From: Porphyra umbilicalis
Taxonomy: Eukaryota; Rhodophyta; Bangiophyceae; Bangiales; Bangiaceae
DNA length: 64,000 nt
NCBI GenBank assembly: GCA_002049455.2
Contig: KV919051.1
Span: forward strand, 1 to 64,000
Reading direction: 5' to 3'
Part shown: piece by piece, positions 1-54,054 of the stretch
Numbering within the stretch: the stretch's first letter is position 1
Layout: the number at the start of each line of letters is the position of its first letter
Program-made: the position numbers and the translations under genes
Notes under the pieces: generated by a model
Database searches by the model: none
The model's input: only the letters and a program-made list of their open reading frames with translations
What the model was told of the DNA's origin: nothing

Positions 1-97
1 GCCGCCGGCGGGTGCGCCCGCGTGGCGGCTGCGCCCGCGGCGCCGCGCCCCGCGCCGGGCGGCGGCGCCCGCGACCGCGGCGGCGGCGGCGGCGGGT

Positions 98-1157
98 ATG
101 GCGCCGGCCGCCGCCGCCGCCGCGCCGCGCGCCGCGTCGGCCGCGCCCGCGGCGGCGGCGGCGGGCGCGTCGGCCGCCGCCGCCGCCGCTGCGGCCGCTG
201 CGGCCACCGCCGCCGCGGCCGCCGGCGGCGGCGGCGGCGGGGCGGTCGCGCGCCCCCCCCCCCCCCCCCCCCCCGCCGGCGGCGCGCCCACCGCCGCCGC
301 CGCCGCCAGCGCCACGGTGGCCGCCGCGGCGTCTGCGGCGGCGGCGGCGGCGGCGGTTGCGGGCGCCGCCGCGGGCGTGCCGCCGCCGCCGCCGCCCCCG
401 CCGCGCACAGGGTGCCTCGTCGGCGACGCCGTCTACAATGACCGCGGGCACCGGGTGTGTGGGGTGCGGAACCAGCGGGGCAACTTGTGTGGGCGCATCG
501 GCCGGTGTCCCTTCCACCCCCGCCGGGGGGGGGGGGGGGGGCGCCGCCGGGGGGGGGGGGGGGGCGGGGGGGGGGCCCCGCCCCCCCCCGCCCCCGCCGC
601 CCCCGTGCCGCCGCCGGGGGCGCCGCGCGCACCGGCGGCGGCGGCGGCGGCGGCGGCTGGTGCCGCCGCCGCCGCCGCTGCCGCCCCCACCCCGCCCCTG
701 TCGGCCCGTCGGGCGCCGTCGGCGGGTGCGGCGGGGGCGGCGGGGGCGGGGGCGGGGGCGGCAGCCGCCGGTGGGGTCCCCCCCCCCCCCCGCCCACGGG
801 GGGTGGTGGCGGCGGGGGGTGGCACCCCCCCCCCCCCCCCCCGGCGCGGCGGCGCGCGAAGCGGCGCTCGCCGCCGCCTATGCGGCCCGCCGGTCGGCGT
901 TGCCCGCGCGCGGGACCCCCCCCCCCGCTCCCGGTACAAGGCGGCGTGGTCCAAGGCGGAGCACGGGCGCTTCCTCGCCGCCCTCCGGTCCCACGGGAAG
1001 GGCCGGTGGATTGCCATTGCCGCCGCCGTCGGGTCCCGCACGGCGGTGCAGTGTCAGAGCCACGCCCAAAAGTACTATGCGCGCGCGGCGGTGCCGCTCG
1101 AGCGGCGGCGGCGCGGCTCCATCTACGATGAGGAGGAGGGGGGGGGGAGGGGAAGGG

Positions 1158-1189
<32 letters not shown>

Positions 1190-1223
1190 CCGCCGCCGCT
1201 GCACCGCCGGTCGGCGTGGGCGT

Positions 1224-1254
<31 letters not shown>

Positions 1255-2104
1255 GTGGCGTCGCTGCCGCCGCCGCCCGCCTCGTCTGTCGCGCGCCCGT
1301 CTGTGGCGGCAGCGGTCGCGGCGGCCGTGGCGGCCGCGGCGCCGGCCGTGCCGCCGCCGGCGGTGCGGGCCGTCGCGCCGGCCGCCGCGCCGGCGGCGGC
1401 GGCGGCGGCGGCGCGGATGGCGGCTCCAGCGCCGCCGCCGGCGGCCACGCCACTGGCAGCGCCAGGAGCCGCAGCGGCGGCGGCGCCCCCCCCCCCCCCC
1501 CCCAACTCCCCGCCTCTGGCGTCACCGCCTCCGCCGTCCCCCCCCACCCCCGGCGGACCCCCGCCCCCCCCCCCCCCATCTACCCGTGGGCGCTCCCCCC
1601 CCCCCCCCCCCTCCCCCCTGGCTCGTCCCCCCCCCCCTCTGCGCTCGCCCCCCCCCCCCCCCCCCCCCCCCCACCGCCACCGGCGGCACCGGGGGCACCA
1701 CCGCGGCGGGGGCCTTCCCCCCCCCCCCCCCCCCCCCCCGCCGGCGCACCCGCCCCCCACGTGCACACGTTGCTCCCCCCCCCCGGCTCGCTGCTTGCGC
1801 TGGTGCACGACGCCCCCCCCCCCCCCCCCCCCCCCCCCGCCGCGTCACCGTCCACGCCAATGGGGTGGCGGGGGGGGCCGCCCGCTGCGCGTGCCGGGGA
1901 GCATGGCCGCCTTTTTCGCCGCCGCCGCCGCGGCGCTCGCGGGGCCCGCCGCCCCCCGGGGGGGGGGGGGGGGGGGGAGCCCCGCCCCCCGCCCTCTGCC
2001 GCGCATTCACGCGCAGCGGGGGGGAACTCCTCGCCGTCGAGGAGATGTGTGCGGACGATGAGTTGTGGGTGTCGGGCGGGGCTGAGTTTGTGTTTCCGCC
2101 GTGA
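98..2104 (+). CDS. MYB-like SHAQKYF-type DNA-binding protein
   Basis: Putative nuclear transcription factor of about 668 residues. A single MYB/SANT repeat lies at roughly residues 280-330. It contains AWSKAEHGRFLAALRSHGKG and SHAQKYYAR, the hallmark of one-repeat SHAQKYF MYB proteins (CCA1/RVE-like in plants). A Cys/His cluster at residues 106-140 has spacing C-x14-C-x9-C-x5-C-x2-H and ends in GRCPFH; it looks like a small zinc-binding module, but I cannot name the family. The rest is Ala, Pro and Gly low complexity encoded by GCC repeats and poly-C/poly-G runs up to 30 bases long. The frame was chosen because one frame carries both motifs; it ends at a TGA after EFVFPP. Run-length errors could shift the sequence after the MYB repeat, so the C-terminal half is uncertain. 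Target genes cannot be inferred. Confidence 0.6.
253..274. repeat. Poly-C tract, 22 bases
   Basis: Uninterrupted run of 22 C. It lies inside the MYB-like gene, where it encodes a proline run between Ala-rich segments. It is a likely polymerase-slippage or sequencing-error site. Confidence 0.9.
1155..1184. repeat. Poly-G tract, about 30 bases
   Basis: Uninterrupted run of about 30 G just after the MYB repeat, encoding a glycine run. It is long enough to form G-quadruplexes, and its true length is doubtful. It is the most likely place for the MYB-like reading frame to be wrong. Confidence 0.9.
1648..1672. repeat. Poly-C tract, 25 bases
   Basis: Run of 25 C in the 3' half of the MYB-like gene, one of several between 1490 and 1840. 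Together they make a proline-rich tail whose frame cannot be trusted. Confidence 0.9.
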
Positions 2105-2438
2105 GGGGGGGGGGGGGGGGCGGGGGGTGTGTTCTTGGTGCGTGGGCGCGGTGGCGCGGCCGCCCGCGTGCGGGGCGCGGGGCCGGCGGTCGGTGTGGGG
2201 TGCTTGCGGTGGCGGCACCCGCCGCCGCGGCGGCGGCCGCCGCGCACCGCCCCGGTGGCGGTTTGCCGGGTACCGCCGCGGCCGTCGCGGTGCCGCACGC
2301 GGCCGCGCCGCAGCGCCGGCGGGGGCAATGCCCGTCACCGGGCATTGCCGAGCCGGGGCGCCTCCGCCACGCCCGCCGTCGGCGGCGGTGCGGGCGGCGG
2401 GCGGCGGGTGGCGGTGGCACCGGGCCGTCGACGGTGCG

Positions 2439-2488
<50 letters not shown>

Positions 2489-3769
2489 CCGCACCGCGTC
2501 GGCCGCTGCGGGCGTGGCCGCGTGCCGCCCGCGGCGGGCGCGCGGCCGGCGTGGCCCCCCTGGGTTTGCTCTTTGGAGGGGGGGGGGGAGGTGTCGCGCC
2601 GCACGCGCGTGCTCGGCGGGTGGCCGCGTGGTCGGGGCGGCGGCCGCCCACCCGCGCGCCGGCCGTGGGGTCGCCGCTGCGCCATCGGTGGGTTCCGACC
2701 CCCCCGTCTGCCGCCGCCGGTCGGACGACGCGTCGTCCTTGTCGGCGTTCCACGGCCCGCCGGCGACGGGGTGACGGCGCGTCTGCTTGCCGTCACGCGC
2801 ACGCCCTTGCCGCGCACGGACCACGGCGCACCCTCGTGGACGTGGCGGGCGGTGGCCTGCCGCCGGCCGCCGCCAGTCTCCATCCCACGCCCGTGTCACT
2901 GGCAAGCCTCGCGCCGTCCGTCGCGTCCCACCGGCGACCGGCGCGTGTCGGTGGCGGGCCCGACCGCCCGCGGCGGTTCAGGCACGCAGACGGCTGCCGA
3001 GGTGCACGCGGCCATCCTGGGGTTGGTGTCGGCTGCCTGTCGCGGGCGGCGATGAGCGTGCGGTGGCTGGGGACCGCCGGTACCACGCCGCCGTTTCGTT
3101 GGCATTGAGGCGTCGCAAGCGATAGTGGGGGGGGGTTCCGTCTAGGCACCTCGCCGCGGTTGGGGCGGCCGTGAACGTGCGTCGCGGGGAAGCAGGGTAG
3201 ATGTTGCGACACGGGCGCCGACCACGACAGTGAGGCGCCGGTAGAGCTCCCGCCGAGGGGATATGGTCGCGTCCCTGATACAGTCAAGCCGCGGGTGGCC
3301 GCACCCGGCAGCCGGCGGCGCCACGGGTGCCTCTGCGGTGGGGGCGAACCGGTGTATAGCGCCCTCACAGCGAGCGCAACGGGCGCGCGGACGCACGGCG
3401 GGCGTGACAGGGGCGGGTGTATCGACCACCTTTGCCACGTCGCAAGCCAAACACTCGGCGAGGACTTCGTCTCGCAAATGTCTCAGAATATTCTGTTCAA
3501 ATGAGGTACTCACTGCGGAATAGTCATTATGACGAGATTTTACAAATTCTTTGGGCGAGATTCTGTGATTTTGTGGGCAGCAGCGATGGTTGGTTTGATG
3601 AAACCAACAGTGCAATTTCGGCTTGCATTGCAAGGCCGGGGCGCCCCCACGTCTTGCCTGGCAGATCAGCCGCTCGGCCGACGCTTCTGCGACGCGGCGC
3701 GGGGCACCCCAATTGAGCCGCCGCCGCCGAACGGCCGCGACGGCAGCGGCGGCGCTTGCGCGTCAAAAA

Positions 3770-35391: not shown

Positions 35392-36312
35392 GATAAACAG
35401 TCCAAGGGAGAGAACAAAAAGTGTCCGACAGCGACTCGAGAGAAAGTAGAGCGGAGAGGGGGGTGTAAGAGTGAGCAAGATAAGTCCCTGCGGGCAACCT
35501 ATGAGTCGAGAGGGGTGGCAGCTAGGTGGAGGCCCGCGTCGCGGCCGCCAGGTGGCGGGAGGCCTGCGGTTGCGGCACTCGCTGCCGCCGCTCTCTCTCT
35601 CTCGTCGTTGATAAAGGGGCCCGACGCACTATCGCCAGCAGCTCAGGGCGGCCGCGCGGAGAGAGCCCTTGTCCAGGTGCCGCGCTGGGGCGATGCGCGG
35701 CCGTTGGGCCAGCGCGCTGGCCTGTGTAGGGACAGGGTGGAAAATAGAGCCGGCACCAAAAAATGGCGGGCACCGTTTACAAGGGGCTCCGAGCAGGGTT
35801 GGCAAACGGAACCCTCATGAACCGACAGCGAGTGCAATGGCGCCAAAAGAGGGGTAAGGGTGAAAAGAGCGCGAGCGTGTCAGTCCCTTTGACATGGCGA
35901 TGCCGCGGGGCCATTCCCACACACTTGACCCAAAGCATGCTCTGACATAGGAGCACCGAGGTCATATGAACCAACAGACGCGGCCTGATGTGACTCCAGC
36001 CGACCACGGGCGACTCGGAAGCAGCTGCTCGTTGGTTTCTCGCCAGCGCATCCAGATACACAGCTTCCTTCCCCGCGTTGACGGCAATCACCTCCGAAAA
36101 TGGACGATGAATAGCGCGCGTTTCCACCCTCGCTCCAGCACCGGGACAAGAACGCCGAAAACAGGCGAAGTTGCAGCTGGCAGAAAGGCTGGTTGACAGT
36201 CAAGCGCCGCCGCAGGCAGAATCGCCTACCTGCCGCCAGAGATCGGAATTCAACGCCGATTGAGTGCACTCAAACTGAGCGAATAGCAAATTCGTGCCTC
36301 AATTGATACTCC
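35392..36312. other. Spacer without a recognised gene
   Basis: About 0.9 kb between the decayed minus-strand gene and the first long direct repeat. Only short frames occur. A run of ctctctctc at 35597-35607 is the only simple repeat. Confidence 0.4.
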
Positions 36313-36553
36313 TGTGGATAAAATCGGGGAACAAGACAGGCTCGAAAACGTAAGAGCAAAAGCGGTGACGCAGCACTCCCACAAGCAACACTCCGACCAG
36401 GGGTGTTGCTCATAGAAGCGCTGCGTCGTACCGGAGGCTGCGCCACCGCCTGCTAGCCGGTGCCGCCCACTGCTTTCATACCCTCAAGCGGTGTCTGCAC
36501 AAGCCCCACCCCCCCGCTCGTAGGCGTCCCCAGAGGGGTCAGAGGGCCTTCGA
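36313..36553. repeat. 241-bp direct repeat, copy 1
   Basis: From tgtggat to gccttcga. It matches 37310-37550 at a constant offset of 997 bp with scattered substitutions and no length change over 241 bp. It includes gacaggctcgaaaacgtaag and cgtcgtaccggaggctgcgc, identical in both copies. Flanks differ immediately outside. Confidence 0.85.
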
Positions 36554-37309
36554 CAGGCACCCAACAGGCTGACAACAGCGAGGTACGCGTCCACACCCCC
36601 CGGCTGCCAGCAACAATGCAAAGGCCCAGCGCGCTAGGGGCTACCGGGGCCCTCCGGCGCCCCTACGTAGGCGCCGGGTCAAACACCAAGACGAGGACGG
36701 GTCCTCCCCAAGCGGGTCGGCCCGTCCAATCAGGCAGGAACCGCAACGTCGCGCCGCCCGGCCCACCACCCGGCGGCGCGCAACCCAGCCAATCAGACGC
36801 CGAGGGCGGTTCCACCACACCGCCACGGCCCGTCATTGGCCACCGCCAAGAGCCTTCATCACGCCGTGCGCGAGGTTGACGCCACGGCTGACAGTGGCAA
36901 GAATCGGAGATTCACAATACCACCACCCCCCAAACCGAGCGCACGGCTCACAGCCGACCACCGCGTGCGCACGGGCAGCCCCGCCCCCAGCCCTACACAC
37001 GGACAGCACCGCCCGGCCCACACACACGGGCGGCCCGACCGGCCGGCAGCAGCGGCCGGGGAAGAAGACGGGCAGGTCCACCCCAGGGCGGACAGCCAGT
37101 GAGACGGCCGCCGCCGCAAAGCGCAGAGGTCCAACCCCCGCAGTGAAGCCGCGCACACAACCACGGCAACGGGGCACGGTCCCGATTGGTACGCCCGGGG
37201 CACCAGGACACGAACAGGGATGGGGAAAGCTCCCGAAGGAGAAAATGAGGCGCAACAGCTCAGGGGGGGAAAGGATGGTACGGTCCCGGATAGTATGTTG
37301 AGTAGCTAC

Positions 37310-37550
37310 TGTGGATGAATTCAGGGAACACGACAGGCTCGAAAACGTAAGAGCAAAAGCAGTGACGCAGCACTCCCACAAGCAACACCCCGACCAGGGG
37401 TGGTGCTCATAGAAGCGCTGCGTCGTACCGGAGGCTGCGCCACCGCCTGCTAGCCGGTGCCGCCCACTGCTTTCATACCCTCAAGCGGTGTCTGTACAAG
37501 CCCCACCCCCCCGCTCGTGGGCGTCCCCAGAGTTGGGAGGAGGCCTTCGA
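37310..37550. repeat. 241-bp direct repeat, copy 2
   Basis: Second copy, same orientation, 756 bp after the end of copy 1. The interval contains no recognisable gene. The pair could be terminal repeats of a small element, two units of a dispersed repeat, or a local duplication. Ends do not show a clear TG...CA pair. Confidence 0.85.
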
Positions 37551-40915: not shown

Positions 40916-41647
40916 TCACGTGTACTGATGTGCGGGGGCAACAATGGCAGGATGACAATTCTTGTTCGACTTGCTGATACAACCGTGCGGCGACACAAGT
41001 CGTCCAGCTTCTCCCCACGCGTCTCCAGTTGTCTCAGTAGACCATGGGACTAAATGTGACACAAGACGAGAACAGCGCACCTTTTCTTTGCACCACAATC
41101 GCAACAGGTCGGCGCGCGGAACCCACCCGACTCGTCGACCCACCCTAATCTGTTCGTGTACGACCCAGCTGCCAAGGGCCGCCCGCAAGTTCTGCTTGCC
41201 CTCTATCTCCTCGTAGAATACCACTAGGTCCTGGGCCATGTCGTCTGGGTCCACCCACAACAAGACACATGAGCAGACGAGGTGAAGCTTTAGGGCCTCA
41301 CTCGAACGCTCCAGAAAGCACGAATTGTTTGAAGCGATGGGATAATGATGGCAGAGGATGTCAATCAGCGCGTCAGTGATGTCACACACCCGCACCCTGC
41401 AGTCAGGACACCTGCGGAACTCCATAACTTGGTATACGCAAGGGAGGGGATAGTTAGACGACAGGGACCCCGAGATTGGGATGGTGGCGGTGGGGCCCCA
41501 CCGCAAGAGGGGAAATCGTAGGCTTGACGAGTCAAGGCTAGCCTTGACGGATAGATCTGATTGGTCCACGCACATCGGACCGGACGCCGGGTCTCTCCCA
41601 CGAGGGGAGCAGCACGCCAGCCCCCCCTGGCCCAGTTGGGACGCCAT
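40916..41647 (-). CDS. Hypothetical protein with a CPDC motif, accessory island
   Basis: Open frame of 243 residues. The middle part looks like a real folded protein: VYQVMEFRRCPDCRVRVCDI, ALIDILCHHYPIASNNSCFL, ALKLHLVCSCVLLWVDPDDM and LVVFYEEIEGKQNLRAALGS. Nine cysteines, several as CxxC or CxC, suggest metal binding. The first 60 residues are less convincing and the true start may lie downstream or in another exon. It ends about 45 bp from the end of the decayed plus-strand gene, tail to tail. I do not recognise it. It may be an accessory gene of the neighbouring transposon. Confidence 0.35.
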   Translation of the reverse strand: MASQLGQGGLACCSPRGRDPASGPMCVDQSDLSVKASLDSSSLRFPLLRWGPTATIPISGSLSSNYPLPCVYQVMEFRRCPDCRVRVCDITDALIDILCHHYPIASNNSCFLERSSEALKLHLVCSCVLLWVDPDDMAQDLVVFYEEIEGKQNLRAALGSWVVHEQIRVGRRVGWVPRADLLRLWCKEKVRCSRLVSHLVPWSTETTGDAWGEAGRLVSPHGCISKSNKNCHPAIVAPAHQYT

Positions 41648-42699
41648 CAGCCCCCACAGGTCTGCTACCCTATCCTATCCTATAGAACCATCTGCGCGCC
41701 ATCACGGACGGCATGACCCTCGCCGGCGGCGGGGTCGCACGATCCCCGTGGCGATTGCCACGGCCGTACCTGGCCCCGGTGACGCGTGGTCGTACGGCGC
41801 TGCCCGCCAGTGCGGCCCCCTCGTACGGGCGGCCGTCGACCAATGCTGCCCCCCGCCCCCCCCCACCTCTTCGGGCCCGAGCCACCGGCTGGGTCGATCC
41901 TCTGCAGTCGTCCCCCCCCGTCCTGACTGCTGGTAGCCGCCTGCCCCGGGGCACCGCCACTGGCCGCCCTCCCCGGGGAGCCGCCGCGGGCCGGCCGCCT
42001 CGCCACCTCGGCGCCCGGTGCTGCGCCCCCCTTCCCGTTCTGGTGGGGTCTATCACCGCATCATTAGTTGCTGTGCAGTGACGGCCTTCGTGGCGCGCCT
42101 CTGATACCTCCTCACCCAGACCTTGGACCCGGCTGCCTACCTGCCGCGCAGGTGGCGGCACCGCACCGCTGCGCCGCAGCTTGACACCACCGCCGCCGCC
42201 CGTGCCCCGTGCTGCTCCTGCTGGCGGTCGCCTGGCGCTTCCTCAATTTTGGCTGCTGCCCGACGGCTCGCCTGGGTGCCTATCGGTACGTTTTGCTGGT
42301 CTTTCGCCGTTCGTTTGATGGCATCGTGAGGGGGACAGCTTGGATACAGCCATTCGCAGGCAGTGTGACAAAGGTCATGGCCACCTCTGTCACCCTCCGA
42401 CCACTAACCACAGGTGCCATGATTGCCGCATCGCACCGTTATCTGTGACCAGCGACGGCCCTCTCCTGCATGACCCCCACGCCTACCCGTCACCCCCCCC
42501 CTCCGCCACCTCCTCCGCTGCACGACCCACATCCGCACGGTCTACCGCGATGCTCTGCCATGGGACACCACTTGCATTTATCCACCGCTATCTGGTTGGC
42601 ATCCACTGTGCGCCCCCCACACTCCACCTTCACGGCATCTCTCCGTTCCTCTTTTTTTTTGTATGCTGTTTTCTTGTCGCGCAGGGGCAACCTGGCGCC
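41648..42699. other. Upstream region of the KDZ-type transposase
   Basis: GC-rich, with a short ctatcctatcctatag repeat near 41670-41690. At 42640-42684 a T-rich tract runs into cgcag, a good splice acceptor just before the first transposase ATG at 42700, so a 5' leader exon is likely. In a neighbouring frame at 42800-42900 the segment LSMSQLRAALFVAGADG resembles the start of a SAP DNA-binding motif; this is weak. Confidence 0.35.
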
Positions 42700-45600
42700 A
42701 TGGTTCTGTTCCTGCGCGCGCTGGGCGACCTCGTGCGTAACGGCGTCGCCTCGGAGGCGAAAGCGCTGCCACCTCCCCCCCTGCCTGGCATCAGTCGTCA
42801 AGAACTCAACTCTGTCAATGAGCCAACTGCGCGCCGCCCTCTTCGTTGCCGGTGCAGATGGATGCTCGCTTCCAGCCCCCCGCGCCGCGGCTCCAAGTCG
42901 CCCCGGATCCGCAACCAACACCAGATGTACACGTGCTCTTTAGAGGAGCGCAGTACGCAGGCGGCATCCGTGCTGCGCGTGCCATTGACGGTCTCTGCTG
43001 ACGCTGCTCTGCACGGCGTTGGTCACACCCATCGAACCGAGGAGGATTGGCGTTGCTTTGTCGCGACCTCGTCCGACCCCGTCATGCACCACGCCGTGCT
43101 TTCCCTTACAAGCGTCGATGGGCACGAGGTGCGAGCCGACGCAACTCGAGAGGTGATGGAAATGGGGGAAGGCAATGGCAGCGATGAGGTGACGGTGGAT
43201 GGGGACGCCGACGGGAGCGGGTACCGCTTTCCGGACCTCAGCCAACCGCGCCCGGGGACGCGGCACGCTTTCGGTGGCAGGACGGTCGGTACTGGCCGCA
43301 ATACGCGCGCCAATCTGCTGCAGGGGTACCTGCTGGCGATTGCGACGACGATCACAAAGATCGGTGTTGAGAAGTGGCTAGAGGAATTTGGCGTAGCCGA
43401 CGACGACCGCGGCGGCGCAGCGGCTCTCCGCTCCTTCCTTGAGCGCACCCTCACGACGCCCTACCGCGGTCAGGTTTGGCCATTGGAGACAGTTTTTGGC
43501 GCCATGGCGCAGATTTCTGACACCGACCAGCACCTGTACAAGGAGCAGGAGCTAATGACGTGCTGGGTGGCGCCCCGCGGGGACATTCAGTGCACGTGCT
43601 GCGGCAGCACAGCAAAGGAGGCCACCCTCGACGTGGAAGTACCGACAGTGGGCGACGATGGGTGCTACCACGCCAAGCTCTTTGGCGACGCTCTGGCAAG
43701 TGTCGGTGTCCTGCTCGGTGACCAGGACGGACAGAAGACCCGGCGCTTCGTGTCACGTGTGGCGGGAGCCGATGTACCAGCTGACGCGGCTGTCGTCAAC
43801 ACGACACGGACGGGGGGGACGGTGGGCGCTTCCGGCGCTCGCCGTGCTTCTCGAGCGGCCCGTGGTCGCGGTGGGCGTGTTTCTACCAGGTCTGGAAACA
43901 CTCGGGCACCATCCCAGGTCAATGACGTTGCGGAGGATGCTGAGGTAGAAGTTTTCCACACCGGTGGTCTCCCTATTGCGGTCGTCGTCGCGGGAGAGGG
44001 CCGCAGGAGGGTGCCCGCACCAGTCAAGTGCGCGCGAAAGACCACCTCGTGCTGCTACTGCGACACAAGTCGCAAGAAGAGCTGCGTGCATGTGCTGCAC
44101 ACGAGGCACCTTCGCCAAGGTGACACAGCGGGCTCCGCTACCGTGCTCGACAGCGCCACCCCGACGATCGTCAAGGCCATCTCCCACCTCGAATTGTCGG
44201 CGTTTAACTGCGACCAGAGCGTGAAGGTGGACATGGACCTGCTCTACGCAGCACGCGACGGCAAAACGTACTTTGTTCCTGCGCCTGAGAAGTGCCCCAC
44301 GTGCGCCACGCCCCGTGGCAGCGCGGCCGCCGACCCGTCCAAGGGCACGGTACTGTCAGAGATTTGTGTCGGGTAGATGGAGCTAGACGCATACACCTGC
44401 AGTAACAAGGAGTGCGGTAAGTGGGTGTGTGCGGAGGGGCGCAAGGAGGGGCTGGTCATCCTTTCCCCGTGCACGGCTGCGTCGGTGACGCTAGTGCGGC
44501 ACTTTGCGTCGCAGGTGGCGGTAGAGGGCAACCCGTTTTCTCAAACGTTCCGCACGTGGTGGACGTCGGCTCTGGAGCGGCGTCGAGCCGGCGTGTGGTC
44601 GTCGGCGACCCCTGGACGTGGCCGCCGCACAGTGTCTCGCCTCCTTTCGGTCGGCCTACGATTGATGGGCAAGGACGCCCCGTTCTGGCCGTTTTTTTGC
44701 GATACCTGCTGCGACGGCGACGAGATTGACGTCGTCACTGCCGATGGGATCTGGCTCGGCTACCTCCGTCGTCTCCTCTTCAACTACTACGCCACGTACT
44801 CGGAGAAGTGCGACTCCAATCCTACCCTGATCCACGCCGCGAGTCTAATCGGCAGCGAGTGGGTCCGCCGCTACATTCGGCTTGCCCTCACCGAGCCCGG
44901 CGCCACGATTGCGGTTTCCACCGAGCAGAGGAAGACGGCCGCACTTGCACTGGCTGTGCTCCTACCCGGCGTCATGCCGCAGTCCTTTCTCAACACCTTT
45001 TCGGCCGACCAGAAGGCCTCCGCTGATGCCCTTCACTCCCTACTCTCCGTAATTTGGGATCTTGATTTGGCCTGCGTGCAGCTGGTGAAAGGGGTGCACA
45101 GCGCCATGACCAAGTTTATCGCCGCGTCCGAGACGAACAACCGCCCGTTGCCTGACAACGCCGTTGAGCGCGACGTGGCTGTTAAGCTGAGCGCATGGCT
45201 CGCGGCGCGTCCTGTCGGTGCTGGACGTGCGGCTGTGGCGGGACCGCCAGTGGCGGCGGCGGCTGCGGCAGCGGCGGGCGCAGCGGCGGCGGCTGCGGTC
45301 GCGGCTGCGGCTGATGCCGCGGCTGCGGCTGCGGCGGCTGGAAACACCAACATAGCAGAGCTGGAAGGCGCACCAGCACAAGATCCGGCGGCTGCAGCAG
45401 CTGCGGCGGCAGCTGCCGCGGGAGGCCGCCGCCCGTCACCAACCACGGCCTTTGAAGTACTGGCCCCAGGGGTCCGGTCGCTTGGGGCAACCGTTGCGCA
45501 CGACCTGGTTGCGTTTTGTGTGGCGGTGGCGTCAGATCCGGTGGTCTCGGCGTTCAACCTGGAGCACGCGTCGGGGCTGCGGGGGCTGGCCGCCCTGCTC

Positions 45601-46623
45601 CGGTCGTCGACTCTGGCCGCGGACCTGCCCGTAGTTCTCAACGAAGCCGTCAAAGTTGGGCCCGTTGGCGCCGCGTTTCCGGTGCATCTGTCGTCGGACA
45701 TGGTCGTCCTGCTCAAGGAGCTGCGGATGGGGGTGGCATTCCTGAACGCGTTGAAGCAGCTGGCGGTCTTGCGCGACGACGTGGCCGTCGCCACGGCGGG
45801 CTGCCTTGACAAAATGGCTGACGCCCTCACCGCATATCACGCGGAGCAGCCCCTTGTAGCCGACTCGGCAGCGCTCTTTGGAGCCAATTGGTGCGGGGAC
45901 GGTATGAGCAGGGAGGAAATGCGCGCTAAGTTTCTGTCTGTTTTTCCCGACGCCAGCGATGACCCGCTCGTGACGGGGATGTACTTCCCTGGACGGCCGC
46001 AGTGCTGAGCCTCGGCCTTCCAACGGACGGAGAAGCCGGACTTGGGCGTGTGCTCAAAAAACTACCAGGACGCGCGCAAGTCGTCCTCGCCCGGGGCGTT
46101 CATCATCTGCTGTGCCTGCAGCCACCCAAAGGTTCTTGGATTCGTCGTGTTGGACAAGCGAGAGGGCCCCCCGGCGTTGCTGGATGCCATCATCACGCGC
46201 TTCTCGTACCTTCCTCGGTTTATCGTCTACGACTTTGGCTGTGGCGCAGTGCGGTCGGCCTTGGGTAAGCTGCCGTGGCTGCTGGCGGTCTCTACGGTGG
46301 TCAGTGACGCTTTCCACATCATCAATCATGTGTGTAGCAAGTTCTTTGCGCCCGCCTCCTTCACCATCCTTAAGCACATGAATACGGTGGCACACGAGCA
46401 GCGTAACCGGGCCATCAAGGCGCTCAAGCGCGTACTCGCGGCTTGCGGTCCGGTCGAGTACACAAGCATCCTCTCCTACCACATGCTGGTGCAGAATATT
46501 CGTGCCGCCGCGAGGGACTCGTGTACCACCAGCCTCCCGGAGTCTTTTGATTTTTCCTCTTTCTATTTTTCTCGTGTGAAGTGTGCATGCGGTTGCGGTC
46601 ACGGGGAGAGCGATGAGGAGTAA
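42700..46623 (+). pseudogene. KDZ-type (Kyakuja-Dileera-Zisupton) transposase, interrupted by two in-frame stops
   Basis: One reading frame of about 1307 codons runs from ATG 42700 to TAA 46621-46623, interrupted by TAG at 44374-44376 and TGA at 46006-46008. Family marks: Cys clusters (IQCTCCGS; TTSCCYCDTSRKKSCVHVLH; EKCPTCATP; YTCSNKECGKWVC); a first acidic site in DEIDVVTADGIWLGYLRRLL (Asp at 44743); the GMYFPGRP block before the second stop and C-x-C (IICCACSH) after it; a second acidic site in YDFGCGAV...VVSDAFHIINHVCSKFFAP (Asp at 46306); and the terminal Glu in MNTVAHEQRNRAIKAL (46396). This order of D-D-E and cysteine elements is that of KDZ transposases, which cut and paste DNA. An Ala-rich spacer sits at 45240-45430. 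Both stops could come from C-to-T change (CAG, CGA). Either it is a recently dead copy or the stops are read through. Confidence 0.7.
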
Positions 46624-48063
46624 AAGGAAGGGCATCTATGTCATCTTAGCACGGCAAGACACTACGGTGGCCCCGATGAGACCGGCCCCGAGTGACTGTA
46701 GCGTTATCTCTGCCATTGCCATTTGCCCCATGTACCTACACGGCAGCCAAGCAACTGTCATGACTGCCGCTGGCCGCCTCTTCCCGCACCAGCTGCATTG
46801 CCACCAGCGCAGCCCGACCGCACCCAATGGCACCAATGACCAGAACCGCTCTCCTATCCTCCAATGCACGGCCACCTTTGTCGCGGCACACTGCCCATGG
46901 CCATGACTGCCGCGGCCAATCTGTCACAGCTGCCTGACCGCAAGCACTCTTTCAGCCAGCCACGCCCCCCATGTACGCCGCTGCTCCCACGACGCCGCTG
47001 CTCCCACGACGCCCCCGCCGCCACACAACCGCCTGCAGAAAAGGTGATCGTTCCCTTCCTTCCACAAAGGAAAGATGCAGGCGTGTACGACATGTCACCT
47101 CAAGCCACCTTTCTGGTCTCTGCCAGTTCGAAAAGGACCCTCTGAGAGCGATAAAGACGCTGGTGCCACTGGACAAACCCACAAACGATTCCCTCACACC
47201 ACTCTCCGCATCTCAAGCGCTCCACATCGTTGTGAGAGAGCATTCCGCTTCTTCCGCACCACGGGAGCACCAGGATTGCTACAGCTGCCCAGAGCACGAC
47301 CAGAACACCTGACACCACTACTGAAAAATCAGCACGCGGCGGAGTGAGAGTGGGGAATCTGAGTGGGAGTAACCTTTGGGGGGCTGCCGCGGCTCGCGTC
47401 AACTGATACACAGGGCCTGCGGGAGAAATGAAGGGGGGAATCCATGTCCGACAGATGCGATGTCGGCCAGGAGTGCTAGTTGGAGGGGGTCTGGCGGTGG
47501 CTGCAGCGGCGCCTGGTCGCCCGGTAGCCGCCGCACGGGCGCGAAGCATACGCACTGGATGGCTGTTTGCTGCGACCGCCAATGGCGCACTGCAGGACGC
47601 ACCGCCCGGTGGCGGGGATGCCCACTACCCCATACATTCGAGAAACGAGTTTTGGCCCGCAGCGGGGCAGGGGATGGATGGGGAAGAGGGTGGGTGCAGG
47701 GAGGCAGGCGCGCACACAAGAGGAAACAGCTCTGTACGTGCTCTCGGGAGGATGCCCTGGTGACCCCCCAGACATCGATTTCGGCGACCGGCCGATCCAC
47801 CTCTGTGGAAGGGGGCAGCGGTCAGACCCGTCCAGAGGGTCCAATGACGGTGGTATTTAGATACGCTTCTGATGAATTCCGTGTGTGAGCGATTCGGTAC
47901 CTCAAATTCCTCGTCGCACGGACGTCGCCTAGACCGGCTTTCAGCCCCACTGAGCCCTCCTTGCAGAGCCACTTTGTCGGTCTTTCTTGCACACGTCGAG
48001 CGAGTGAGCTGTGCCTTGCTCCCCAGGCCCTCCCTGTTGGCGTGCGTCCTGTGCTTTTGCGTT
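46624..48063. other. Spacer between transposase and helicase
   Basis: About 1.4 kb of moderate GC. It contains a 17-bp tandem pair at 46975-47008. Several short frames occur on both strands without recognisable motifs. The helicase frame stays open upstream to 47872, but that part has no family similarity. Confidence 0.4.
46975..47008. repeat. 17-bp tandem repeat, two units
   Basis: acgccgctgctcccacg occurs twice in direct succession (46975-46991, 46992-47008), followed by a partial third unit. Confidence 0.8.
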
Positions 48064-49563
48064 ATGACCGACCCCTCCCCGTCCCTCGATGCCTCGCAGC
48101 TTCAGGTCGCTCGGTACGTGCTCGGCGGGCGCAATGTGGCCGCAGTGGGAGCCGCTGGGTGCGGTAAGAGCACCTTGCTGGCACTCATTGTGAGCGTCGC
48201 GCGGCAGCGGTGGGGGCCGGACGCTGTCGTCGTGCTCGCTTGGGCGGGCTCGGCCGCCCAACTCGTCGGTGGCCAAACCGTAGCATCTCTTTTGCACGTG
48301 TCGGTTGGGGACGTAAGCAAAGAACGCATACTTTCCCGCATCCTGGCCAACCCCCAGGCCCGCGGCACTATTGCAGCCGCTCGGCTTGTGGTCATTGACG
48401 AGGCCCCAACCATTCCAGGTAGGTGGTTCGATCGCCTGGAATATGTGTTTCGTCGGGTCGCGGCTCCAGCCATGCAATGCAGGCCGTTTGGCGGACGCGT
48501 CGTCTTTGGTATGTTGGTGTGTCTGTCCTTTTTCTTTGAAGCCGGCGCGAGCTGTGTCTCGGTGCGGGCGAATGGGGGGGGTGGAGGATACTTGTAGGGG
48601 AGCAGACGAGCCGCAGTGGCCTGACTCGAATCGTGTCTTTCTGAGATGCTTCATTTTTTGTGAGCAGCTGCTGGTGACCCTTTGCAGCTCCCCGCCTTCA
48701 AAGTGACGGACACCTCGACGCCGAAGGGGGCTTACATGGAGAGAGCGTGGGACGATACGTTCTTTTCCACGCACGGTGTCGTTGTCGAGCTGGTGGGACA
48801 GCATCGGCAAGCCGAAGGAGACCCTTTGCTGTCAATCCTCGCACGGCTGCGTCTCGGCGTTTGTTCTGACGAGGACGTCGCCTTACTGAACTCCACATGG
48901 ACGGATGAGGTGGAGGAGTGGTCGGACTACCAGCACCTCCGCTCCAGGGGTTGCGACGCCCAAGATTACAACCAAAAGCGGCTGGCAGCTCTGGACGGCG
49001 CCACCGGCACGTTTTCCTGCCGGGACGAGGTTCCACAGCCGGAGCAGACGCTGCCAGTGGGCCCGCACACCTGCAGTGTGCCAGATCTGCACCTCGCCGC
49101 AGCCAGCCTCGTCACGGTGAAGGTGGGCGCCCGCGTCGTCTGCACGATGTCCTTTGGTGCTGTTAAGACGGGAGCTCACGGCCTGGTTGTCTCGTTTGTG
49201 GATGGGGTATCCGTATGTTGCAAGTTTGACGGCGTGCAGGAGCCAGTTGACATGCCCTTTGTCAAGTTCTCAGTAATGGATGATGACGAGCGGGAGCTGG
49301 GGTGTCGTTGGCAGGTGCCTGTTCTGCTCTCTTGGGCTGTGACTGTGTCCCGTGCGCAGGGTATGACTATCCGCAAAGTGGCTGTGGACTTCTCTTGCAC
49401 GACGTGGACGTTGGACGGTTTGGTGTATGCTGCTTTATCGAGAGCTGTATCCCTTTCCTGTCTGCGTGTCCGCGGGCTGACTAAGGAGCACGTGAAGGTG
49501 AGCCAAAACGCGCTGGCGTGGTATGAGAGAGCTCGGTCGGAGCTGGTTTTTCGGGGGCTGTAG
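48064..49563 (+). CDS. PIF1-family DNA helicase, compact, one intron
   Basis: Superfamily 1B 5'-to-3' helicase, 446 residues after splicing. Exon 1 is 48064-48508 and exon 2 is 48668-49563. The 159-bp intron (48509-48667) has GTATGT and GAGCAG ends, and the join restores RVVFAAGDPLQLPAFKV, the PIF1 motif III. Other motifs in order: QLQVARYVLGGRNVAAVGAA with GCGKST (Walker A, Cys where Thr or Ser is usual), AGSAAQLVGGQTVASLL (motif Ia), RLVVIDEAPTI (Walker B), VPVLLSWAVTVSRAQGMTIR (motif V region) and GLVYAALSRAVSLSCLRVRG (motif VI). The frame is intact across both exons. There is no Rep/HUH endonuclease domain, so it is not a Helitron RepHel. The ATG was chosen because PIF1 similarity begins about ten residues later. 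Location suggests a mobile-element gene, possibly acting in element replication or repair. Confidence 0.8.
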
Positions 49564-49633
49564 GGCATCTAGTGAAGGCGTTAATCATTTTGGAGAACGA
49601 ACGAAGCATCAAACCTCTAGCAATCGACACTGC

Positions 49634-52106
49634 CTACTCGGAAAGGTAACGGTAGTCCCACAGCACTGACTGACGCATGGTATCATGGTCGTCACTGCTA
49701 CTTCCGACCCCAACCATGTGTGAAGGCGGTGTCTGGCGGCCAAAGTGCACGGTCTTGTACCGCTCATACAAAACCGACTGGTAGAGCAACGCAGCAAAAG
49801 GGTACCGCTCCCGATAGCAGCCTTCCTCCACGCGCACTGCCAATATCTCGACCACGGGTACATCCATCTGGACGCGAGCAGCGTACTCGCCGAGCGCACA
49901 GGGTACCGCCCACCTCCAGATGATCGCAGTCCCGAGGAGGCGCCCTCTCTGCGTGGAGTTGGTTGGCCTGTCCCACAGCCGTACTCGCGGGCTGCAGCAC
50001 ACAACATCCAAGAGCGAAGCAAACTCGAGGGAATGGTCTCGTCAGTCGTCCATCGAGCCGTTGACGAAGCATGACAAAGGAGATGCCCCCCCCTACGCAG
50101 CCCACCCTTCTCAGCGTAGACACCCACACATACCCGACAGAAGCGGCCTTCCATAGAAGATCACAGCCACGAAGAGCAGCAGCACCGAGCGTCAAAGGCA
50201 CCTCTGGGGGACCGCCATCTTCCACCACCTCGTGAGCGCCTGCAGCCAGCTCCACATCCCCTTCAGACGAAACTGGAAGTACGCCGGCAGCCACCGCCCA
50301 GTCATATGCCTTCTCTGTGTGCTCTTCCAGCACATCCACCTGGCAAACGACGAATAGATGCTTGGAAACGGGCATGCTACCCATGTGCGACCGCACGGGC
50401 AACAACACCCCTGAGCCCACGACGACGCCATCCAACAGAAGCGACCACCGCTGCGGGTGCGGCGGCAGCGAAGACAGCGACCCGCCGCGTCGATGGTTCT
50501 CCTGCAATTCCAGCTGCGCGGCCGCCGTCGCAGCAGGAGATGGCGCTGATCCTCCTCCAAAACCGGCGGCAGTGGCCACTGTGGCGCCACTGGGGGAGGC
50601 CGCCGCCGCGTCGCTGCCGTTCGCCGCGTTGACTCTGGCTGCAGCCACGTTGCCTGAAGCTGCCACCGACACACCGAAGCCAGCCGCCGCAGGGCTGGCA
50701 GCCAGAAGGTCGCGACCGGTAGCCCCCGCGTCGGTCGCTGTGGCACGAACGCTGGCTGCTGCGACGCTAGCAGCCGGCACGTTGCCACCGGCAGCTGCCA
50801 TGCTGGCCGACGCAGCATTGACGTCTGCTAAAGAGGCGCGGGCAGGTGGTGGAGCATCACCAGCACCCGCGGCGCCGCCGGCCACTGCGCCACTTCCCAC
50901 CGGCGCACCGCCGCCGGCAGCCTCGCCGACATTTTGTGCGGCAGCGCCACCTTCCCCTGCGCCGCCAGTAGTCGCCTCGTCGTTGGCAACCGCCGCGGCT
51001 GCCACGGCACCGGCAGCTGCCGCGGCTGCGGCGGCACTCGCAGTGGCGGACCGCTTGGCCTTGCAGGTAGGCGGCACCTGCGCACCGCTGCAAATCTCCT
51101 CCACCAACCACATGTATGCGGCGTCCTTGATGTGCACCATGAAGCATATCAGGCCGAGGAACCTGACAGGGTCGACGTCCCCGGTGTTTGTCAGCGACGG
51201 GGCGGCAACAGTCTGGATGACGTCCTCATAGTTGTATTCAATCGCCACCTTGGTCACTGCGACGGGCGTCATTGGCAGGTACTTACTCGCCTGCGTCGAG
51301 GTGCGACTCCGAGAGGGCAGCCGCGACAAAAAGTCGTTTGCGGCGAGGCGGATGAGCTGCAGGAAGTGCTTGGAGAGCGCCCGGTCGGTGGAAAAACGCT
51401 CGCGTAGCCGCCCCAGCAGGGAGAAGCACAGCTGGTCTGGCACGACGACTGTGTTCTCCTCGGTGACCACGAAAGCCTCGCTGCTGTCCACAAACTTTGG
51501 CCCCACCATGGGAGCAAAGGAGAGCAGGTCGGGGAAGCGCGCCAGCGGCCGGGTGGGCATCACGACAGCAGGTGGAGCACGCCGTGGTCGTTGAGTGCGA
51601 GCACCCCGGCGAGTCGCCCCCGACGCAGTTGGGCGCGGTTGGCCGCCCGCCCGTGGGCGTAGGTGCAAATCACCAGGTGGCGTTGCCGGGGTTGACGGGG
51701 AAGAACGCCCGAGTTCCTGGGAGCTGCTGCTGCTGGGGGAAGAGAGAGGGCGAGCACGGACGGGGGGGGGGTCCGCCGACCTGCGCGACGGCCTCGCCCC
51801 GTCTTGAACACGCAGCGGCGCGGCGTTGCGTAAGCTCCCCATGATGAGCCGCATCCCCGTGGCAATGTTGTTCTGCTCCGCGCTGCTGCATTGCTGGGCG
51901 TGATCCCCCCCGTACAGCACCACGGCGCTCTGCCCATTGGCGGGAGCGGCCATGAGGAACAAGACGAGATCCCCTTGCGTGGTCTGTGACACCCGCTCAC
52001 ATGCATGCACCGCCATCTCGGCGGCACAGCACGCCGCCGTTTCGCGGCCGTAGCTCAACGCCGAGAGTGCGTGGCCAACCGATCCCAAGTCCTCCAGCGA
52101 CGCCAT
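49634..52106 (-). CDS. Orphan spliced protein of about 776 residues, convergent with the PIF1 gene
   Basis: Exon 1 is 52106-50134 and exon 2 is 49991-49634 (minus strand). The 142-bp intron has GTATGT and CTGCAG ends and splices in phase, turning a run of frame-shadow sequence into PTNSTQRGRLLGTAIIWRWA and VVEILAVRVEEGCYRERYPF, ending WDYRYLSE and TAG. Exon 1 starts MASLEDLGSVGHALSALSYG and includes DLVLFLMAAPANGQSAVVLY, VVVPDQLCFSLLGRLRERFS, ALSKHFLQLIRLAANDFLSR, VRFLGLICFMVHIKDAAYMW, a long Ala-rich spacer and HLFVVCQVDVLEEHTEKAYD. Between about 51580 and 51830 the chosen frame looks poor, while a neighbouring frame gives HLVICTYAHGRAANRAQLRR, so another intron or frame change is likely there. 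No domain is recognised. Composition resembles the transposase, including the Ala-rich spacer, which supports membership in the same element. Confidence 0.5.
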
Positions 52107-54054
52107 GTGTACCGCAACCACCACTACAAACAACAGCGTAGCGGCGGGGGAGGTGGGGAAGGTGGGGGGGATGGCGGAGAGCCGAGACGGAAGATCAATG
52201 GGGCGGCCGAGTACGGGAGAGGCAAGGGAGGTGGGGGGCGATGAAGACCGGTCTGATGAGGGGGTGGGGGGAAGGGACGGTGTAGACCGATGAGGCGAGG
52301 AAGGGGGGGAACAAGAGGAGCGGGGAGGAAACGCGGAGCAGACGGCTGCAACAAAGCCGTCGGGCCCAGCGGCGGGGAGCGCCGCGCACTTACGTGAGCA
52401 CGACTGAGGACGCTCGGGGAGATGCGCTGAGCACTTGGCCATTGACCGCGGCGCGCACCTCCCGCTCGGGGTGCTGACTTGGCAGTGGGTATGGCGGAAG
52501 TATCGTGACGTCACAGGCAGGCGTCGGCCGTCCCATCGCATAGGAACAGCCAAACGAGGGGGCGCAAGGCACCCCATTGCCCCCCCCAACGATCCAGATC
52601 CGATACCCCCCCACCCCCCCCCCTCAAGATTCCGAATCTCCTCCCCCCTACCTTGACGCCTTGACGGAGCCTTGACGAGTTCCTTGCAACCCGTCAAACC
52701 TACGAATACCACCATTCCCCACCGCCACCGGGAGGGCCGGGTCCAATGATCGTGCTGTCGGTGGGGTCGAGAGCAAGCCGTCGCGGCTAAGTCAAGCGCT
52801 GACCGACAAGGCTTACTCGCCATCATCACAGTAAGCCGAGGCTCGGATCACAGAAACCACGCTGCACGGACTATATCATGTACATGGCCCAATGAAGCAG
52901 CGCAAGATCCTAGTAGCATAGCCACGAGTGCGCAAGAGCAGAGCACCAGACCACTGTCCGTATACTGCAAAATCTTCATCCACAGATGTCCTCCGATGAC
53001 TGCTCGAAACAGTCATCCAAACCCTCAGCCAGAGCAATCCTCGATGATCCGATGAGCCCCGATGAGGGTTCGAAGACTTTCGACCCAATGCTGATGATGG
53101 CGCCGTATCGGCCCCGACGATCGCCCGCCCGCATCATCATCGCAGGTGCCGTTTCGATCTCCATGCCATAGGGGCCAATCACAGGGCGTTTACGCACACC
53201 GTCTTGCTTGCATGCACAATTCAATGTGAGCGAGCGAATCTGGCGCTTGTTTTGGGCGCTTGTGGTGGTGAGTCCCTGCGTGGTTGCAGGCACGGTGGCG
53301 GATCAAAAAAGGTCGGGGGCTCAACGGCAATCTGGACGGAGGGGGTGGGTGCTCGGACGGTTCCTCGGGCGGGGCTGCGTCTGACAGCGCGCGCGCGGGC
53401 CCACTGGCCGCCCCCAGAGTCAGTGGATGGAGGCGCAGCGGCGTGGATGGCCCTTGGGATGGATCATGATGGTCGATGGTTGACGGACGCGTCGATCGTC
53501 GCCGAGTCTGGGATGGCGCCTCTGCCGCCCCCGCGGCAGGCGCCGCGCGACGTGCAAACACGGGGCTCTCTGGGGAGGTGCTGCGGGCGCAGGAGCGCGG
53601 GGGCAGGTCGAGCCGCGGGCGTCGCCCGGGCCCCGCCCTCATACCTTGAGGCGCGTTGCCGGGGGGCGCCGTGAGCGCCCGCGGCTGGGACCCGCGCCGC
53701 CTGTCGCAGGCGCGCTGCCGCTCCCCGGCCCCGCCGCCACCCCGAGCCGCCGGTGCGCGCCCGGTACCGGCGCCGAGCGGGCACCGGCGAGCCGCTATTT
53801 AGCCGTGCCGGTGCGTCTGGCGGTGGGGCGGGGCCGGCAGAGACACACGGGGACCCTTTGCCGTCGCGGCGGTGCAAGGTGTGCGCGCTGCGCACCGCGC
53901 AGCGGCCGGCGGACAGGTCCTTCCCCCCGTCGCACCGACTCCCCCCCCCTATCCTCCGCCTCCCGTCTGGTTGCTTGGCGGCCACGGCGGTTGCCCCTCT
54001 GCGGTCCCTCTTCCTGCTCTTCTGCCTCCCACCGCCCCCCTCCCCTCGCCGACC
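52107..54054. other. Right edge of the accessory island and promoter side of the PDR gene
   Basis: Two kilobases without a recognisable gene. Moderate GC to about 53.2 kb, then GC-rich. Four CGATGA words at 52994-53066 and a short hairpin at 52995-53017 lie at the change in composition. The 100 bp before the PDR start codon are pyrimidine-rich. Confidence 0.4.
52995..53017. other. 8-bp hairpin at the island edge
   Basis: gatgactg (52995-53002) and cagtcatc (53010-53017) are perfect reverse complements around a 7-nt loop. Nearby CGATGA words at 52994, 53042, 53050 and 53060 echo the cluster at 31.5-31.6 kb. Confidence 0.5.

Follow-up and report, generated by a model that had tools for sequence, protein, structure and literature searches.

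Do a transposase gene, a helicase gene and an orphan gene that lie together in a repeat-rich part of a red algal genome form one mobile element, or are they neighbours by accident? The question is raised by the first 64,000 nucleotides of contig KV919051.1 of Porphyra umbilicalis (positions 1-64000, referred to here as the window; the contig is C291 in the analysis labels), in which a KDZ-type transposase gene is followed by a PIF1-family helicase gene and by a spliced orphan gene that converges on the helicase. An earlier note on this DNA had grouped the three as a possible composite transposon. The three genes are one DNA transposon unit, 11-13 kb in length, which duplicates 7 bp of its target. 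The window holds one full-length copy of this KDZ-kind transposon, in which the helicase most likely aids copying or gap repair and the orphan protein would act at the ends, a reading to which we give, as a whole, a probability of about 0.85.

Extent and Insertion of the Element

The transposon occupies positions 41504-52717 of the window (11,214 bp) and is enclosed by a perfect 7-bp target-site duplication (TSD), CCCACCG, present on both sides. Its limits were set by comparison with other contigs of the same genome (C2, C6, C149 and others; 83.8 Mb searched). DNA matches between the window and the related stretches of C2, C6 and C149 were bounded by 41504 and 52719, and the only other matches were short, G+C-rich ones at 21.9-24.1 kb. 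Elsewhere in the genome, 11 of 15 matches to the left end began at window positions 41503-41506 and eight of ten matches to the right end stopped at 52709-52711; reading of the flanks shifted the right end a few bases outward, to 52717. The terminal features are the following.

41497-41503, no strand: left TSD, CCCACCG, identical to 52718-52724 (ends placed with the help of relatives)
41504-41530, + strand: left terminus, an imperfect 27-bp terminal inverted repeat (TIR), CAAGA..AATCGTAGG, matching the right end at 19/27 positions
52653-52697, + strand: right subterminal cluster of four TTGACG/CGTCAA hexamers
52691-52717, - strand: right terminus, imperfect 27-bp TIR, its end set by flank reading
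52718-52724, no strand: right TSD, CCCACCG

Perfect 7-bp TSDs also enclose the elements on C2 (80126-92050, AAACCAA) and C6 (596261-608981, GTGGCAG). Across the eight elements compared, the two flanks agree at 7/7 positions in five, at 6/7 in two and at 3/7 in one (C149), while none of 56 mismatched left-right flank pairings attained 6/7. This comparison was made without C72, the right end of which appears degraded, and without C181, C4, C21 and C149b, for each of which one end was read. The inverted repeat has 16-20 matching positions across the eight elements, and the termini of the window, C2 and C6 copies are CA...TC, with 18-20 matches out of 27. The terminal 250 + 250 bp of the window element hold six of its 19 TTGACG/CGTCAA hexamers, against 0.85 expected; the corresponding counts are 6/16 in C2 and 5/19 in C6. 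Smaller derivatives of 3.1-4.0 kb with the same kind of ends, their inner content partly read, were found at C5:581446-584556, C134:101732-105701 and C150:76416-79963, and C72, with its degraded right end, is a further derivative of 3-4 kb.

The C2 copy is nested in a smaller relative, the ends of which are of the same kind and which is enclosed by a perfect TSD of its own, CAAGGTG. This smaller relative is present without the insert on C4, C150, C181 and C21, which provide empty sites for the C2 copy. When joined, the C2 flanks aligned with these four paralogues at 98.8, 98.4, 98.2 and 97.0% identity, gapless at the junction. Further alignments of the joined flanks crossed the junction on C5 (88.5%), C134 (88.4%) and C149b (85.9%), and C72 aligned in two pieces. 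Because of these paralogous empty sites, it can be concluded that the 11.9-kb piece carrying all three genes entered C2 in a single event.

Unrelated neighbours in a repeat-rich island would be in keeping with one observation, that no host gene was recognised in the scanned frames between 40.2 and 52.8 kb. The shared ends, the TSDs, the empty site and the recurring gene order and orientation all contradict such an explanation, the C2 empty sites refute it for that copy, and the chance that it holds is close to nil. A single transposon, by the same evidence, was correctly surmised in the earlier note, where the joining of the three genes had been offered as inference. The span given there, 42340-52106, was close but inexact; all three genes fall between the ends, whereas ends close to 42.3-46.7 kb would be expected had the genes been unrelated. 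The TSDs it had suggested looking for are perfect in the window, C2 and C6, but not at C149.

Transposase

42700-46623, + strand: KDZ-type transposase frame of 1308 codons with the final stop counted, broken by TAG at 44374-44376 and TGA at 46006-46008
43591-43671, + strand: CxC...CxH cysteine/histidine motif, with CxC..CxH retained in the aligned members that cover the region
44740-44760, + strand: first acidic motif, ADGIWLG, with a putative catalytic D; A and D are invariant in 13 rows
46225-46407, + strand: second D (VYDFGCG), SDxFHIxNHxCS, and HEQRN (putative E)

The D, D and E motifs occur in order along the frame, and the Cys motifs, of which CxC...CxH is presumably SWIM-like, recur in relatives. 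The Y, D, F, C and G of VYDFGCG are invariant in nine aligned rows, and HEQRN, for which a catalytic role is putative, is retained in the aligned rows that extend to it. The two in-frame stops fall at codons 559 and 1103, and the window copy is probably no longer self-sufficient; the transposases of C2 and C6 are single open frames.

A Pfam scan of the transposase frame gave nothing useful. Judged by profile comparison, the transposase belongs to the KDZ superfamily, a membership that rests on a bridge of Pfam-positive genes. The KDZ profile PF18758 matches 34 places in the genome, 19 of them above cut-off. Three bridge genes, read in pieces, match it at E values of 1.5e-6, 1.1e-5 (slightly below the curated cut-off, 25.7 vs 26.6 bits) and 2.2e-6. 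The same genes are matched by a hidden Markov model (HMM) of the catalytic end of the window family, at E values of 1.1e-12, 4.9e-12 and 1.3e-11, where the best of 600 shuffled decoys reached 0.47. Aligned profile to profile with hhalign, the window family and the bridge gave a probability of 96.4% (E 1.2e-9) and a score of 66.5; of 50 column shuffles, the best scored 20.2. Matches to CxC domains were weak and below cut-offs (CxC4, E 0.0053 in one of 13 members; CxC5, E 0.11 in one of 13).

Helicase and Orphan Gene

48064-48508, + strand: PIF1-family helicase exon 1, with Walker A and B
48509-48667, + strand: helicase intron, GTATGT..GAGCAG, GT-AG
48668-49563, + strand: PIF1-family helicase exon 2, from GDPLQLP to the C-terminal motifs
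50134-52106, - strand: orphan exon 1, comprising an N-terminal domain (52106-51816), domain 2 (51509-51036), an Ala/Gly-rich linker and a third conserved piece
49992-50133, - strand: orphan intron, GTATGT..CTGCAG, GT-AG
49634-49991, - strand: orphan exon 2, C-terminal WDRP domain, with a confident structure model

The helicase of the window is 446 aa long and has no internal stop. Its exon-1 frame matches Pfam PIF1 (PF05970) at E 1.3e-13, and the best matches of an exon-2 profile were chains of the Protein Data Bank named PIF1 (E 4.1e-38, e.g., 6hph), followed by other entries of PIF1 type with E values of roughly 1e-21 to 1e-36. The match to the Helitron protein Helraiser was weaker and partial (9.2e-16). 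On these profiles the helicase is a member of the PIF1 family, nearer to PIF1 than to Helraiser. A Pfam scan of eight frames between 40.2 and 52.8 kb matched no Rep/HUH domain. Exon 2 of the C6 helicase has one in-frame stop, so that the C6 copy is partly broken.

The orphan protein, 776 aa, is encoded convergently with the helicase, and its Ala/Gly-rich linker is variable between the conserved pieces. The frame had no Pfam match at E up to 0.1, and the C-terminal piece none at E up to 10. A structure model of the C-terminal domain, built from 22 sequences, had a predicted local distance difference test score of 88.9, and a search with it found no useful match; the N-terminal model was poor. 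For helicase and orphan alike, the intron occupies the same position in C2 and C6, with diverged intron sequence.

All three genes lie where the earlier note had placed them, as confirmed by the frames and the final gene models. Its KDZ-type transposase with ordered D, D, E and Cys elements was recovered, with the addition of two stops that it had not mentioned, and its descriptions of an intact spliced PIF1-family helicase, without Rep in the eight frames scanned, and of a spliced orphan gene converging on it, were accurate.

Recurrence and Shared History

Genome searches with the helicase, orphan domain 2 and the transposase gave, after merging, at least 70, 10 and 36 places, respectively; 113 helicase rows were merged into 70 places and 39 transposase rows into 36, and the helicase places are lower bounds, as 95 of 171 candidates were scored. 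The recurrence of the three genes together, which the earlier note had proposed to look for, was found on C2 and C6, in the same order as in the window, and on C149, likewise but with much extra DNA between the genes. A helicase lies within 20 kb at 22 of the 36 transposase places, where the helicase count would predict about 3%, and at 16 of those 22 it is downstream on the same strand. In these distance counts, C9:428582 was paired with the nearer, upstream helicase, another lying about 4.2 kb downstream.

The orphan gene is associated with the helicase in the same way. At nine of its ten domain-2 places a helicase lies less than 5 kb away in convergent orientation, and two queries with C-terminal exons detected 28 distinct places, all within 2.6 kb of a PIF1-like helicase and all convergent, where chance would give about 0.5% per place. 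With an HMM, the orphan C-terminus was detected at 23 of 24 helicase loci read with their flanks, and also at C37. The locus at C2:109k was detected by the HMM alone, having been missed by both exon queries; the exception to the HMM, C104, has its orphan C-terminal exon 2.6 kb away.

Nonsynonymous divergence (dN) is far below synonymous divergence (dS) in the transposase (0.15-0.19 vs 1.1-1.2), the helicase (0.09-0.20 vs 1.3-1.9) and the orphan gene (0.07-0.45 vs 0.6-2.6, one dS undefined), many of the dS values being above 1 and near saturation. Because dN is so low in all three genes and they recur jointly in the genome, the gene set is beyond what chance would produce.

Among the 34 Pfam-positive KDZ places, seven are followed on the same strand, at 5-6 kb, by a PIF1-like helicase, three have a divergent helicase 9-11 kb away, and 24 are without any in the list of helicase places. 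Since helicases also accompany some of the Pfam-positive KDZ genes, their association with the transposase may predate the window family. The protein distances of transposase and helicase over 19 pairs were strongly correlated (Mantel r 0.917), and none of 20,000 permutations was as high (maximum 0.433). The pairs comprise co-directional and divergent layouts, three of the 19 being divergent, and include C181, with partners 27 kb apart, and C149, with 14 kb between them. Transposase and helicase have diversified together, and PIF1 is a lasting partner rather than a chance neighbour. For this reason the element looks like one old lineage and not a recent fusion, and "composite", the term used in the earlier note, is not the most fitting one for it.

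A different history would make the helicase and orphan an accessory module with a past of its own, acquired by several KDZ lineages and maybe also a separate element, with a transposase that needs neither. Such a history would account for helicase-orphan pairs with no KDZ match nearby among those listed (C319, C11, C240, C37 and C2:109k), for KDZ genes of opposite orientation (C32, C56, C77, C168 and C90) and for the 27 of 34 Pfam-positive KDZ places with no same-strand downstream helicase. It is nevertheless improbable given the close agreement of KDZ and helicase distances, which extends to the three divergent pairs. Moreover, no KDZ-less pair was shown to have ends or TSDs of its own, a weak test, since the flanks read extended to only about 1.5 kb and distant KDZ genes may escape the query.

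Several observations weigh against a single three-gene transposon with the roles proposed here. No helicase was found within 20 kb at 14 of 36 KDZ places, nor an orphan C-terminal exon at 41 of 70 helicase places (the 28 above and C2:109k have one); such unpartnered places can be put down to decay, missed matches or other types of element. The direct genome scan with PF18758 did not match the window transposase family. The C149 copy, despite ends of the expected kind, was rejected as additional proof of insertion because its two flanks agree at only 3/7 positions. Finally, the recurrence, the ends and the history are those of one genome, and the roles of helicase and orphan are deduced from sequence.

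Other arrangements of these genes were seen among the copies. Two near-identical tandem units, each with KDZ, helicase and orphan C-terminal exon, lie about 7.75 kb apart at C9:420.8-427.8k and 428.5-435.6k, with helicases 98% and transposases 97% identical; the short space past the orphan exon of the first unit suggests that most of its orphan gene is missing. A divergent transposase-helicase sub-lineage is represented at C56:277-289k and C168:3.8-15.6k, copies that are 97-98% identical, and also on C77 and C90. At C9:471590-477964, other DNA, about 5 kb of it, interrupts the matches to a window-family helicase.

Relation to Known Elements

The window element resembles the KDZ elements (Zisupton, Dileera, Kyakuja) in its large transposase, homologous to theirs through the Pfam-positive bridge. 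It is comparable in size to Cryptococcus KDZ1-KDZ3, of about 9-11 kb (PMC12810828), and like Kyakuja it has a 7-bp TSD; that of Zisupton and one Dileera element is 8 bp (PMC12730594). Kyakuja, however, ends in CA..TG without inverted repeats, in contrast to the CA...TC and imperfect 27-bp TIR found here (PMC12730594), and the Cryptococcus elements have inverted repeats of 139-241 bp and TSDs of 4-8 bp (PMC12810828). Zisupton and Kyakuja occur in Chlamydomonas (PMC8226300), where a KDZ insertion in CBA1 (PMC10828217) and a mobile 31.7-kb KDZ element (PMC12477816) have been described. Giant KDZ elements reach 30.3 kb, some giant families carry accessory genes (PMC12477816), and in fungi and brown algae such genes have been described from KDZ or giant elements (PMC12730594, PMC12477816). 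The window element departs from these KDZ elements in that its helicase of the PIF1 family is encoded by a gene of its own and is joined by a third, convergent gene that is conserved.

Helitrons carry a PIF1-like helicase fused to Rep. This likeness, together with the lasting partnership of the PIF1-family helicase, could be taken to suggest a replicative element, in which the helicase unwinds a strand from one end in a Helitron-like, copy-out or peel-and-paste manner, the DDE enzyme only cuts and joins, and excision is unneeded. The 7-bp TSDs and inverted repeats instead fit cutting and joining at both ends, the helicase is a separate gene beside a DDE-type transposase, the eight scanned frames have no Rep match, and the helicase profile favours PIF1 over Helraiser; a replicative element of this kind is thus rather a poor prospect.

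In CACTA/EnSpm elements, a second gene product, TnpA, binds subterminal repeats. The window element offers an analogy: it too carries more than one gene and has short repeats close to its ends, which a second protein possibly binds. It differs from CACTA/EnSpm elements, which have 3-bp TSDs and CAC ends (PMC12730594), in its 7-bp TSD, its CAAGA start and its KDZ-bridged transposase. No Pfam match to the protein-primed DNA polymerase or capsid genes of Polinton/Maverick elements was found in the part of the frames scanned in the window, C2 and C6. Among the titles, abstract openings and passages covered by the literature search, none names a KDZ element with a PIF1 helicase; an earlier description may exist in the Iyer 2014 KDZ paper, the 2012 Zisupton paper or Repbase.

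Surroundings of the Element

To the left of the element, a 245-bp direct repeat at 36309-36553 and 37306-37550 (93.5% identical, the pair spanning 1.24 kb overall) has the look of a small element of the long terminal repeat type, resembling a terminal-repeat retrotransposon in miniature. To the right, frames of an ABC transporter gene (Pfam ABC_tran and ABC2_membrane; PDR/ABCG-like by layout) occupy 53.8-58.9 kb on the + strand, the first of them opening about 1.1 kb from the right end of the element. G+C content reaches 75-90% in 1-kb stretches at 1-3000, 19-24 kb and 26-27 kb, but is 59-67% in the part at 31-53 kb, which is rich in repeats.

Proposed Mechanism and Significance

By the general view, eukaryotic DDE transposons depend on their host for gap repair, and cellular Pif1 drives D-loop extension. 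In the mechanism proposed here, the transposase would make 7-bp staggered cuts and join the ends, while the orphan protein may bind or bridge the ends, with the TTGACG repeats as its possible sites. The PIF1-family helicase would provide strand displacement, most likely in copying or homology-directed gap repair. Gap repair would refill the long element at the donor site and so increase copy number, and both copies with a broken transposase, such as that of the window, and the 3-4-kb derivatives would need to be moved in trans. Help in the copying or gap repair of a long element is the role favoured for the helicase, at slightly under even odds; a role at the ends during transposition is unlikely. 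It is further suggested, tentatively and with the odds against it, that a deep KDZ lineage of this genome uses an obligate machine of three proteins, namely DDE transposase, PIF1 helicase and third protein, which is coupled to repair or replication and for which the element itself supplies the helicase.

The long conservation of a PIF1 helicase suggests that help for replication or repair may be encoded by very large elements themselves. A helicase of their own could explain how KDZ elements of 10-30 kb continue to multiply. The genome offers what a direct test of this idea requires: copies whose frames are open, others that have decayed, derivatives of 3-4 kb sharing the same termini, and a clean empty site. 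If it exists, the obligate three-protein KDZ machine would represent a design between cut-and-paste and rolling-circle elements.

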